Assembly: GCF_003014555.1 (NCBI RefSeq)
Contig: NZ_PYGE01000006.1
Span: 62,001 to 126,000, forward strand
DNA from: Haloactinopolyspora alba
GTDB lineage: Bacteria; Actinomycetota; Actinomycetes; Jiangellales; Jiangellaceae
Length of the DNA stretch: 64,000 bases
Direction of reading: 5' to 3'
In this document: piece by piece, positions 507-27,843 of the stretch
Position numbering within the stretch: the first letter of the stretch is position 1
Layout of the letters: every line of letters begins with the position of its first letter
Notes under the pieces: generated by a model
The model's database searches: none
Told to the model about the DNA's origin: nothing
What the model saw: only the letters and a program-made list of their open reading frames with translations
Position numbers and translations under genes: made by a program

Positions 507-653
507 GTCACCTGATCGTTCGTGCACTGTCGATCAGGTGCTCCGCGCCGGCGCCACCCCCGCCGTGCGCGTCACCTGATCATGTCCAGATGCCGGACGC
601 GAAACGATCAGGTGACGCCGTGCCCGGAAACCCCCCAGCTGTGTCACCTGATC
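507..653. repeat. Cluster of five TCACCTGATC palindromic repeat units
   Basis: Units in alternating orientation lie at 507-518, 531-540, 571-581, 605-616 and 643-653. Two pairs form hairpins: CACCTGATCG with its complement around a 12-nt loop, and GCGTCACCTGATC (569-581) perfectly paired with 606-618. The cluster fills the convergent gap between the hydrolase and terC. The same unit forms a second cluster at 25927-26094, also in a convergent gap. Confidence 0.8.
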
Positions 654-24683: not shown

Positions 24684-25919
24684 ATGGCGCGGCTGGCTCG
24701 GCAGGTCCGGAACGCCGGGCTCGGCGGCCCCGCGGGCGTGCTCGCCGTCGGCACGAGCCTGGCCAACGGGCTCGGCTACGTCCTGACGGTCGTCGGTGCC
24801 CGGCGGCTCGGCCCTGCGGAGTTCGGTGCGTTCAGCGCGCTGCTGGCGCTGATCGTCGTCGGCAACGTCGCCGCGCTGGCGATCCAGGCCACGACGGCCA
24901 GGGCGGTGGCGACCGGACGGCCCGCCGCCCCGCCGGTGCGTGCCGGTCTCGCCGTGGCCATGGTGCTCACCGCGGCTCTCGCGGCCGTGAGTCCGCTGCT
25001 CCGCGAGGGGTTGCATCTTCCGTCCGTGGTGGCGGCGATCGCCGCGGCCGTCGCGATCGGCGGCCTGGCGGTCGCCGCGCCCTCACTGGGGATCGTCCAG
25101 GGGCGTGAGCGTTTCCGGCTGCTGGCCGCGCTGCTCGCGATCCAGGCCGCGCTGCGGGTGGGCGGCGGGCTCGTCGGGATCGCGATCCGGCCCACCGCGA
25201 CCGCCGGACTGATCGGTATCGCTGCCGGGTTCGTCCTCGCCGCCGTCGTGGCCTGGACGGTCGCCCGCCCGGCCGCGGCCGGGGCGCGCTCGCCGGCCCT
25301 GCGCGCGACGCTGTCGTCAGGTGCCTTGCTGTTGGGTTTCGTGGTGTTGACGAACGTCGACGTGATGCTCGCGCGGCACGTCCTGCCGGCGGATGCCAGC
25401 GGCCTGTACGCGGCCGGCTCGATCTTCGCCAAGGTCGTGTTCTGGCTGCCGCAGTTCGTCCCGATGCTGGCCTTCCCGGCCATGACCGACCCGGCCCGAC
25501 GGCGCGGCGCCGTCACGCTGGGTGTCCTCGCGGTCGCCGCCAGCGGCGGCGTTCTGACGTTGCTGGCATGGCTGTTCTCGGACACCGCGGTACTGCTGGT
25601 CGCCGGGGACGACTACGCGGAGCTGGGCCCGTGGGTGCCCGGGTTCGCCGCGCTCGGCGCCCTGTACGCGCTGGCCCACGTGCTCGTCTACGCCCACCTG
25701 GCGCGCGGTGACCGCTGGACCACCGCCGTGCTCTGGACCCTGCTGGTCGGCTATGTCGTGGTGGTCGAGACCACGGCCGCGTCGCTGGCGGACGTCCTCG
25801 TCCCGGGCCTGGTCACGGCCGGCGCCGTCGTCTGCTGGGGGCTGCTGCGCGAACAGGCGGCATTCACCCGGTTCGTCACCCCTGCGCGCCACCGGCACCA
25901 TCACCCCGACCAGAGGTGA
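24684..25919 (+). CDS. Polysaccharide/lipid-linked oligosaccharide flippase (Wzx/MVF type)
   Basis: 411 residues with about 12 membrane segments. Near the N-terminus GTSLANGLGYVLTVVGARRLGPAEFGAFSAL is a typical MOP-superfamily (oligosaccharide flippase) opening. NVDVMLARHVLPADASGLYAAGSIFAKVVFWLPQ is the conserved region of repeat two. AGGATGG precedes the ATG. Divergent from the GT-C-like gene, it probably moves the lipid-linked glycan made by this locus across the membrane. Confidence 0.85.
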   Translation: MARLARQVRNAGLGGPAGVLAVGTSLANGLGYVLTVVGARRLGPAEFGAFSALLALIVVGNVAALAIQATTARAVATGRPAAPPVRAGLAVAMVLTAALAAVSPLLREGLHLPSVVAAIAAAVAIGGLAVAAPSLGIVQGRERFRLLAALLAIQAALRVGGGLVGIAIRPTATAGLIGIAAGFVLAAVVAWTVARPAAAGARSPALRATLSSGALLLGFVVLTNVDVMLARHVLPADASGLYAAGSIFAKVVFWLPQFVPMLAFPAMTDPARRRGAVTLGVLAVAASGGVLTLLAWLFSDTAVLLVAGDDYAELGPWVPGFAALGALYALAHVLVYAHLARGDRWTTAVLWTLLVGYVVVVETTAASLADVLVPGLVTAGAVVCWGLLREQAAFTRFVTPARHRHHHPDQR

Positions 25920-25926
25920 CACCGGC

Positions 25927-26094
25927 GTCACCTGATCGCGAAAATCTCACCTGATCACACTGACAGTGCCGATCAGGTGACGTGAACTGCCCACGGCGGG
26001 CACAGACCGGCACCTGATCACGTCTCACGATCCGGGCCACCGACGATCAGGTGACGGCTGGCCCATCGAGGATGGTGAATGTGTCACCTGATCG
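25927..26094. repeat. Second cluster of TCACCTGATC repeat units (six copies)
   Basis: Units lie at 25927-25938, 25947-25956, 25970-25981, 26011-26020, 26044-26055 and 26084-26094 in both orientations, so several hairpins can form. The cluster fills most of the convergent gap between the flippase and the transglycosylase gene. It has the same core as the cluster at 507-653, about 25 kb away. Confidence 0.8.
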
Positions 26095-26205
26095 ATTCTG
26101 AGCAGCGCCGGGATCCGCGTGGCACCGTACAGAGACACCAGACGCTCAGGACGCGAGCGACCAGTGTTCCGGGCGGCTACGGAGGACACCAACACCTCCG
26201 GCGCG

Positions 26206-27843
26206 TCACTGCCGCCGGTTCACCCGGCCCGCGGTCTGGCGCGTGGTCGGCTCCGCGGTGCGCGGCGCCTCCGGCGACTGCGTCGGGCTGCTCGACGGCT
26301 CAGTGGGCTCGTCGGTCTCCCCGGTCGGCGTCGGTTCGGGTGACTCGTCGCAGGACTCGTCCTCGTTCGGGTCGTCCTGATTCGGGTCGTCCTGATTCGG
26401 GTCGTCCTCGTTCGATCCGTCCTCGCCGGCGGAGCCGTCCTCCAACGGAGCTTCCTGCCCCGATGTCGTGTCCTGGCTCCCGTCCGTATCACCCTCGGTG
26501 CTGTCGTCCGTGCACTCTTCGGGCGTCTCCTCGTCCGGGCTGGTCGGGTCATCCGTGGGCGTCTCGGTCGGCGTCTCCGTCGGTGTCGGCGTCTCCGTCG
26601 GTGTCGGCGTCTCCGTGGGCGTCTCCGTCGGCGACGGCGTCTCCGTCGGCGACGGGGACTTCGTCGGCGACTTTGTCGGTGTCGGCGTCTCCGTGGGCGA
26701 CGGAGACTTCGTCGGCGTCGGGGACTTCGTCGGCGTCGGGGACTTCGTCGGCGACGGGGACTTCGTCGGTGTCTCCGTCGGCGACGGGGACTTCGTCGGC
26801 GGGTCCTCCGTCGGCGAGTTCTCCGGCCCGCTCGGCTCCGGGTCGGGATCCGGCTTGCCGTCGGTATCGCCGGTCGGATCCTGCGACGGCTTCGGCGGGT
26901 TCTCCCCTGGATTTCGACCGTCCGGCCGGCCCGGAGGCTTCGGCGACGACGGATCGTCGGGCGACGGCGGACCGTTCGGCCCGCCGGCCAGGATCGGGTT
27001 GTCGTCACCGGGACCGGGCGCCTCGGTGACGTGCCCGCGACCGGCCTCGTACGTCCGGATCCAGCTCAGCACCGTGGCGACGTAGGAATCAGAGTTGTTG
27101 TAGCGGTACAGCGCGCTCCGCAGCCCGGCTTCGGTACTGAGATCGTCCCCGCCGGCGCACAGGTAGCGCGCCGCCGACACCGTCGCGTCGAACACGTTGT
27201 GCGGGTCGACGAGGCCGTCGCCGGAACCGTCGACGCCGTAGGCCTTCCATGTTCCGGGGATGAACTGCATCGGCCCGACAGCGCGGTCCCAGATCGTGTC
27301 GCCGTCCCACCGTCCGCCGTCGCTGTCGCTGATCGAGGCGAAACCGTTGCCGTCGAGCGCGGGACCGAGGATCCGTGGTCGTGCATCCCCGTCGGCATCG
27401 ACCTGGCCGCCGTTGGCGTGCCCCGACTCGATCTTGCCGATGCCGGCGAGCACCTCCCAGCGGATGCCGCACGCGGGGTCGTCCGCCGAGACCGTCGCGG
27501 CGGCCTGCTGGTACGCGTCGAGCACGATGTCCGGGATGCCGAGACCGGCAGCCGACGTCCCCGACCCGGTCGCCCCGGGAACGTACGAGCCCGGTGCTCC
27601 GCTGGGGTACGGCGACGTCGCCGACGACGACGGCACCTCGACGACCGTGACGGAGGCCTGTTCGTCGTCGAGTGCGACCGACTCGACCGTCACACCGTCG
27701 TCCGCGCCCGTGTGTCCCGAGTCGTCCGACCGCGTCGCCGACACCAACGAGTTCGGACCGGGCAAACCCGCCGCGCCACTCAGCGACAGAATTCCTGAGC
27801 ACGCGACGGCAGCACCGACTGCTCGCAACACAGGGCGCAACAC
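26206..27843 (-). CDS. Secreted lytic transglycosylase with Pro/Thr/Ser repeat tail
   Basis: 545 residues. An N-terminal signal-like hydrophobic segment (AVACSGILSLSGAAGLPG) is followed by a linker. The MltB/SLT_2-type catalytic domain (about 120-265) has LAGIGKIESGHA with the catalytic Glu, AVGPMQFIPGTW, and the C-terminal ALYRYNNSDSYVATVLSW. The remaining 260 residues are low complexity: P/D/G-rich, then PTETPT/SPTKSP tandem repeats, then NEDDPNQDDPNQDDPNED. The tail may span or bind the cell wall. It cleaves peptidoglycan glycan strands. Confidence 0.88.
   Translation of the reverse strand: MLRPVLRAVGAAVACSGILSLSGAAGLPGPNSLVSATRSDDSGHTGADDGVTVESVALDDEQASVTVVEVPSSSATSPYPSGAPGSYVPGATGSGTSAAGLGIPDIVLDAYQQAAATVSADDPACGIRWEVLAGIGKIESGHANGGQVDADGDARPRILGPALDGNGFASISDSDGGRWDGDTIWDRAVGPMQFIPGTWKAYGVDGSGDGLVDPHNVFDATVSAARYLCAGGDDLSTEAGLRSALYRYNNSDSYVATVLSWIRTYEAGRGHVTEAPGPGDDNPILAGGPNGPPSPDDPSSPKPPGRPDGRNPGENPPKPSQDPTGDTDGKPDPDPEPSGPENSPTEDPPTKSPSPTETPTKSPSPTKSPTPTKSPTPTKSPSPTETPTPTKSPTKSPSPTETPSPTETPTETPTPTETPTPTETPTETPTDDPTSPDEETPEECTDDSTEGDTDGSQDTTSGQEAPLEDGSAGEDGSNEDDPNQDDPNQDDPNEDESCDESPEPTPTGETDEPTEPSSSPTQSPEAPRTAEPTTRQTAGRVNRRQ

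Follow-up and report, generated by a model that had tools for sequence, protein, structure and literature searches.

An array of alternating short units in Jiangellaceae, probably a copy of a non-autonomous mobile element

Between two converging genes of Haloactinopolyspora alba lie six short units that together are probably one copy of a mobile, non-autonomous element found in Jiangellaceae, the working part of which would be a putative protein-binding platform. Whole arrays of this kind recur as copies, and are missing at orthologous places in relatives. In the window (the whole stretch of 64,000 nucleotides that was analysed), the array treated here, locus 2, comprises six TCACCTGATC units at 25928-26093, in orientation ++-+-+, and a second copy of the element, locus 1, is also present. 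The features are as follows.

24684..25919, + strand: flippase-like gene upstream of the array (so named in the preliminary description; without Pfam match)
25928..26093, + strand: whole array of locus 2 (U1-U6, canonical orientation ++-+-+; unit matches and model R1)
25928..25937, + strand: U1, the optional direct unit, 19 bp upstream of U2 (unit match)
25947..25956, + strand: U2 (unit match)
25971..25980, - strand: U3, convergent, 24 bp from U2 (unit match)
26010..26019, + strand: U4, GCACCTGATC, one mismatch (unit match)
26020..26044, + strand: inner module, the U4-U5 spacer (family consensus about RTSTCCANNATGYGGAC..GAAAY)
26045..26054, - strand: U5 (unit match)
26084..26093, + strand: U6 (unit match)
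26206..27843, - strand: SLT-domain (transglycosylase) gene converging on the array (PF13406, E 4.5e-9)
508..653, + strand: locus 1, second copy of the element, with units at 508+, 532-, 572+, 606- and 644+ (unit matches and model R1)

The unit search confirmed what the preliminary description had reported, namely six units in both orientations between converging flippase and transglycosylase genes, one of the units being mismatched. U1 starts 8 bp past the stop codon of the flippase-like gene, and 112 bp separate the end of U6 from the stop of the SLT-domain gene. The window contains 14 unit sites with at most one mismatch, versus 3.28 expected and a maximum of 9 in shuffled sequences (n = 100), and 11 of these 14 fall within the two arrays. 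The flippase-like protein has relatives of 68-69% identity in Jiangella asiatica and J. anatolica. Near the C-terminus of the SLT-domain protein lies a long repetitive stretch of low complexity (window 26206-26700), and the relatives of this protein in the congener G001 and in Jiangella have C-terminal repeats that, by eye, are similar yet different.

It had also been claimed that the order and spacing of the units differ between the two loci. This is not the case: start-to-start distances are 24/40/34/38 in locus 1 and, from U2 on, 24/39/35/39 in locus 2, with the order +-+-+ in both, so that locus 2 differs in layout solely by the optional extra direct unit 19 bp upstream. A covariance model, R1, matches both arrays over their full length, with 110.9 bits for locus 1 and 104.7 bits for locus 2 (25947-26093); it was built from 34 arrays, both window arrays among them (38 sequences were prepared, L038, L039, L058 and L071 being left out of the alignment). 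The related statement that the arrays are not a simple duplication holds in part. The spacers differ, and a recent duplication is thereby excluded, but the two arrays are copies of one modular element and were not assembled independently.

This layout is general. The genome of origin (G000, 5.5 Mb) contains 282 exact units, 152 on one strand and 130 on the other, and not a single occurrence of the word read backwards; unit pairs with 21-30 bp between them number 52, versus 0 for the reversed control. Nearly all of the 50 clusters (two units or more) found in the window and in 56 other opened stretches follow one layout. Among the 288 units compared, the core CACCTGATC is almost invariant, a G precedes the 10-mer in 251 and a purine follows it in 275, although the clusters were found via near matches, which favours apparent invariance of core and flanks. 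Neighbouring units are spaced by 24 (n = 40) or 34-35 bp (n = 49; 4 others) when convergent, by 38-39 (n = 73) or 48-50 bp (n = 16; 4 others) when divergent, and by 19 bp (n = 47; 5 others) when direct. Zero, one or two optional direct units stand upstream in 5, 27 and 7 of the 39 full G000 arrays, respectively. Order and spacing are the same in 154 full arrays of five genomes (G000, G008, G013, G014 and G021) belonging to three Jiangellaceae genera.

The distances fall into discrete classes. Over these 154 arrays, U3 and U4 are separated, start to start on a 9-bp core, by 39-41 bp in 101 cases, 49-51 bp in 46 and 57-60 bp in 7, and no array has a distance of 42-48 or 52-56 bp, when 30-61 bp were allowed. 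The alternatives thus differ by about one helical turn. The simplest cause of such phased distances would be a protein complex whose sites must all lie on one face of the DNA; the direct spacing of 19 bp does not correspond to full turns. Part of the class pattern reflects descent, since the nearest-neighbour array belongs to the same distance class in 28 of 39 cases, versus 20.5 expected. In G000, spacers of the long U3-U4 class are no more alike than those of the short class.

Between G000 copies, units U2 to U6 are 99-100% identical. The spacers other than U4-U5 are 36-41% identical, versus 28-29% for shuffled letters (36% versus 29% for U3-U4), and only the U4-U5 spacer, at 60%, has a clear consensus, around TCCANNATGYGGAC; with all spacers included, shuffled letters give 26-29%. 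Outside G000, units are 89-100% and spacers 39-77% identical, bearing in mind that units with more than 2 mismatches in 9 positions were not accepted as matches, so that part of the unit variation is cut off.

Among 22 genomes of the family, 14 match R1 at E 0.01. The matches, which include many arrays matched on both strands, number 144 in G008, 129 in G000, 111 in G014, 88 in G021, 79 in G013, 40 in G011 and 19 in G015, and are fewer in G007 (15), G018 (12), G006 (5), G020 and G016 (3 each), and G019 and G003 (2 each). At the same threshold, no match was found in the congener G001, nor in G002, G004, G005, G009, G010, G012 and G017. When 197 genomes drawn from the class were searched at E 1e-5, all 9 matching genomes were Jiangellaceae; the filters of this search were stricter, and the weak matches of G003 and G019 did not pass them. 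BLAST of the array against plasmid and phage collections gave no match. A viral origin was considered, as 11 IMG/VR stretches contain one convergent unit pair, and was rejected: the best of them by R1, L372, reaches 33.4 bits versus 104.7 and 110.9 for the window arrays, and its match is a different, GATCGATC-rich iteron-like block. That block (L372:13329-13530, on a phage-like contig) is made of GTGATCGATCAGGTGATCGATCAC palindromes, which are unrelated iteron-like repeats. Searching the literature for the 10-mer word returned, among the matches listed, papers apparently unrelated by title, and no description of the element was found in the open-licence literature on Jiangellaceae or actinobacterial repeats, MITEs and REPINs, or subterminal transposase sites. 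The element is apparently undescribed so far, and was seen here only in one small actinobacterial family.

How do the arrays disperse? Comparing them across the genome and its relatives, as the preliminary description had proposed, shows that arrays move whole and that orthologous gaps are not identical. Gain or loss is already visible at the window loci. The gap between the flippase-like and SLT-domain genes is without exact unit in G001, J. asiatica and J. anatolica, and in G001 both genes are kept while the array is absent; at locus 1, no array stands in the corresponding gap of G014, and in G001 the two genes are separated by other sequence. The two window copies are therefore gains in this lineage, or were lost elsewhere.

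Other genomes provide further cases. In G013, about 14 copies stand at 78-88%, and when 12 arrays of this genome were aligned with their flanks, likeness was limited, by eye, to the array and about 10 bases around it. A four-unit copy of G021, L160, has 13 further copies (88-96% over 111-167 bp), and its insertion is missing from G017 and G018, where the orthologous sites are empty and the flanks have 92-95% identity. Clean absence of the array was also found for L145 in G017 and G018, and for L147 in G018, the inserted segments exceeding the array by 30-46 bp per side. For ten array sites of G021, 22 counterpart stretches were taken from G017, G018 or G019, and none of them contains an exact unit; a looser pattern matched once in L287, once in L355 and once in L339, outside the gap. 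Some copies did not arise by insertion of the element, however, since the near-identical G021 copies L157/L159 and L156/L158 are segment duplications with gene flanks. In L157/L159, the duplicated segment runs from the last part of one gene through the array into the first part of the following gene, the two being read as pyrD/pyrF-like.

The L160 insertion, which belongs to a G021 subfamily, may have been moved by another system. Nine fetched G021 copies (L221-L225, L227, L228, L233 and L238) share a longer left flank, and several copies, most clearly L225, L227 and L233, have imperfect inverted repeats of about 20 bp at both ends, so that, in this subfamily, the array may be the cargo of a travelling MITE. 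The G021 element concerned is MITE-like, about 290 bp long, and carries the array inside; its inverted ends, around AGGGTGTGTCTCCCGGGTC, are clear in several copies. Terminal inverted repeats are thus present in part of this subfamily, as in the G008 pairs described below, and none were seen in the single arrays of G000 and G013; in single arrays, both end units have the same orientation.

In G008, 149 matches were located, many arrays again being counted on both strands, and many of the matches form head-to-head pairs a few hundred bases apart. The opened loci of this genome hold 62 full arrays (65 under a looser rule), and 28 inverted pairs of 441-1466 bp could be delimited. In 14 of the 20 loci opened, a pair is flanked by two called genes that converge on it, and U1 points toward a gene 3' end in 55 of 63 cases, at a median distance of 11 bp. 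The two arms are often nearly identical by eye, and the pair of L310 (583 bp) matches that of L314 (584 bp) with 97.5% identity over 611 bp, which indicates that the inverted pair recurs as one unit; at L330, G012 has an empty site. With such pairs, the array looks like a transposon end. Pair middles are mostly without called genes, and what lies between the distant arrays of L320 and L322 are ordinary genes for enzymes, transporters and one regulator. The two inverted arrays of L321 enclose a CsbD-family gene (984-1181), which may have been captured as cargo or may belong to the host.

The mechanism that we propose is the following. A DNA platform of 145-190 bp would offer six (roughly four to eight) sites of 9-10 bp to one DNA-binding protein, probably a transposase, which would bind them as a complex, with the sites on the same face of the DNA. 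As suggested by the inverted pairs of G008, the complex would pair two array ends and move the segment between them, and single arrays such as those of the window would be one-ended or derived forms. Some copies would have been kept for long, the complex or its 3' position being useful or harmless to the host. In keeping with this account, arrays stand mostly behind genes, usually shortly after a stop codon, and U1 is directed at a gene 3' end in 124 of the 152 arrays for which a neighbouring gene was called. Against this mobile-end account, no transposase was found among the called ORFs of the 20 G008 loci, nor by Pfam on 14 proteins from L319-L322 (two short L322 ORFs were left out), and the loci opened contained no autonomous copy. 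The shared orientation of both end units in single arrays and the extra length of the L145 and L147 insertions also count against it, and the polarity is partial, as U6 likewise faces a gene 3' end in 101 of 150 cases. By eye, the sites inspected had no clear target-site duplication; match ends overlap by 9 bp (L160, G018) and by 23-24 bp (L145, G017 and G018), and could be imperfect duplications.

Several known systems share part of these properties. MITEs are short, non-coding, multi-copy insertions. The array is like them in being non-coding, multi-copy and missing at orthologous places in relatives, and part of the G021 subfamily adds terminal inverted repeats of about 20 bp, but single arrays typically lack such repeats at their ends, and no parent insertion sequence was identified for the array. 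hAT elements are eukaryotic, and encode a transposase. Their subterminal repeats resemble the array as many short sites of variable orientation for one oligomeric transposase (PMC6188088), whereas the variable spacing and orientation of their sites differ from the fixed layout of the array.

IS607-family ends (IS1535) consist of multiple 9-bp motifs, helically phased, that nucleate a multi-dimer transposase filament; the filament captures the second end, and there is no target-site duplication (PMC6188088). Multiple short motifs at an end and helical phase recall the array, with its spacing classes about one turn apart. In that account (PMC6188088), the IS607 motifs are direct repeats and two proteins are encoded between the ends, unlike the array, whose units alternate in orientation and which has no linked coding gene in the loci opened. 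The array also differs by its copy number, tens per genome.

REP, BIME and REPIN sequences (GTAG and CGTC superfamilies) are, according to PMC3733652 and PMC2817692, of high copy number and mostly downstream of genes, as the arrays are; alternating orientation, paired units and some species-specific families are further likenesses to REP and BIME (PMC3733652). REP units, however, are 20-40 bp palindromes with a tag (PMC3733652), when the array unit is a non-palindromic word of 9-10 bp (n = 288), and the fixed six-site layout with fixed spacer lengths has no equivalent in REP or BIME. None of the 288 units has a GTAG tag. The base two positions before the unit is C in 118 of 288, T in 95, G in 62 and A in 13, and CGTC is not a constant tag, since the C is found in those 118 only. 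It is possible, as a tentative proposal, that the arrays represent a kind of bacterial transposon with ends made of alternating, helically phased six-site arrays, moving in pairs (G008) or as solo ends (G000, G013), placed directly behind stop codons, and in places retained by the host over very long times as a 3' boundary element.

Alternatively, the array may belong to the host altogether. A chromosomal protein would bind it at the 3' end of genes as a roadblock, insulator or nucleoid anchor, host selection would keep the arrays, and spread would account only for their arrival; we regard this as rather unlikely. The position of the arrays speaks in its favour. Of 50 array rows of G000 (48 elements, L043 and L054 being entered twice), none is inside a gene called by the codon-score caller, and 23 lie between convergent, 23 between co-directional and 4 between divergent genes. 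Moreover, the G000 units are intact while the spacers are nearly unrecognisable.

Sites shared across genera are also in line with host selection, and are not predicted by pure mobility, as their units are mostly intact. An array directly follows icd (isocitrate dehydrogenase gene), in the same orientation, in G000, G013 and G014; the cimA-like/ilvE-like gap has an array in G000, G021 and G014; and clpB is followed by one in G000 and G014. At these three sites, the spacers are not recognisably alike. For the G000 shared sites, gene families of the neighbours were obtained by Pfam, and gene names are interpretation. Chance seems an unlikely cause of this sharing. In the pyrD/pyrF gap, an array is common within genus group g3, with a different layout. 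A further candidate, map, was rejected as a shared site, because L144 of G021 and L177 of G014 are in neighbouring, not identical, gaps; the argument for long retention is unaffected, as it is carried by the icd and cimA/ilvE sites. The majority of compared sites are nevertheless not common between genomes, which argues against a host element, with the restriction that 20 loci of G013, 20 of G021, 18 of G014 and 2 of G008 were compared, fewer than the genomes hold, so that site sharing is a lower bound. The bursts of copies and the recurring paired forms also count against it, and the array is not essential, as 8 of the 22 family genomes, the congener included, are without match.

If our reading of the arrays as probable mobile elements is right, the family carries ready-made multi-site protein platforms of fixed geometry, and a new kind of element end. 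The arrays would also allow one to ask, in a natural experiment, if repeats behind genes are selfish passengers or serve as working boundaries, because close species carry, lack or swap repeats at the same gaps.

The array could also act in the transcript, as an RNA hairpin element (a terminator, or REP/BIME-like stem-loops). Arrays stand at 3' ends, as REPs do, and the transcript of alternating inverted units folds strongly (-83.7 kcal/mol, z -4.98); yet the strong fold follows from the perfect inversion of the units, and is not independent evidence. Covariation is absent from the pairing columns of the 34 G000 arrays, where 92.2% of the cells are paired versus 92.1% after shuffling, and the position adjoining the unit is unpaired in 20 of 34 arrays. 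For U2-U3 in G008, the matching combination CACC/GGTG is found in 31 of 62 arrays, versus about 23 under independence, an excess that could be due to descent, but the non-complementary combinations CGCC/GATG (15 of 62) and CACC/GATG (6 of 62) are frequent as well. No terminator-like site was found in 25850-26260, and no Rfam family matched at its gathering score in 16 loci (94415 bases), the window stretch giving weak microRNA matches only, far below their gathering scores. Steps of one helical turn are not expected from RNA loops either. With no Rfam match at gathering score and no covariation, a structured RNA was rejected, and a role in the transcript appears improbable.

That 10-bp units disperse or originate individually, which is close to the reading of the preliminary description, is the most improbable: isolated exact units do occur (L079-L086, without cluster), and the extra 19-bp direct units come and go singly, but order and spacing are fixed genome-wide, recent-burst copies share spacers across the entire array, and recent copies, inserted segments and the G008 pair all consist of whole arrays.

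A different repeat, unrelated to the array, is abundant in some Jiangellaceae. This hairpin (TTGCAATGAGCACC...) is an inverted repeat of TTGCAATGAGCACCNATACGCA and its complement, and has 143 sites in G017, 91 in G015, 64 in G018 and 0 in G000 (at most 2 mismatches), with examples in L271, L272, L276, L277, L283, L284 and L285. Of the 9 stretches of G017 that correspond to array sites of G021, 4 contain an arm of it. In close relatives, and as part of the tentative proposal of a transposon kind made above, the hairpin may occupy the same gaps instead of the array, as if the two families competed for, or replaced each other in, one role.
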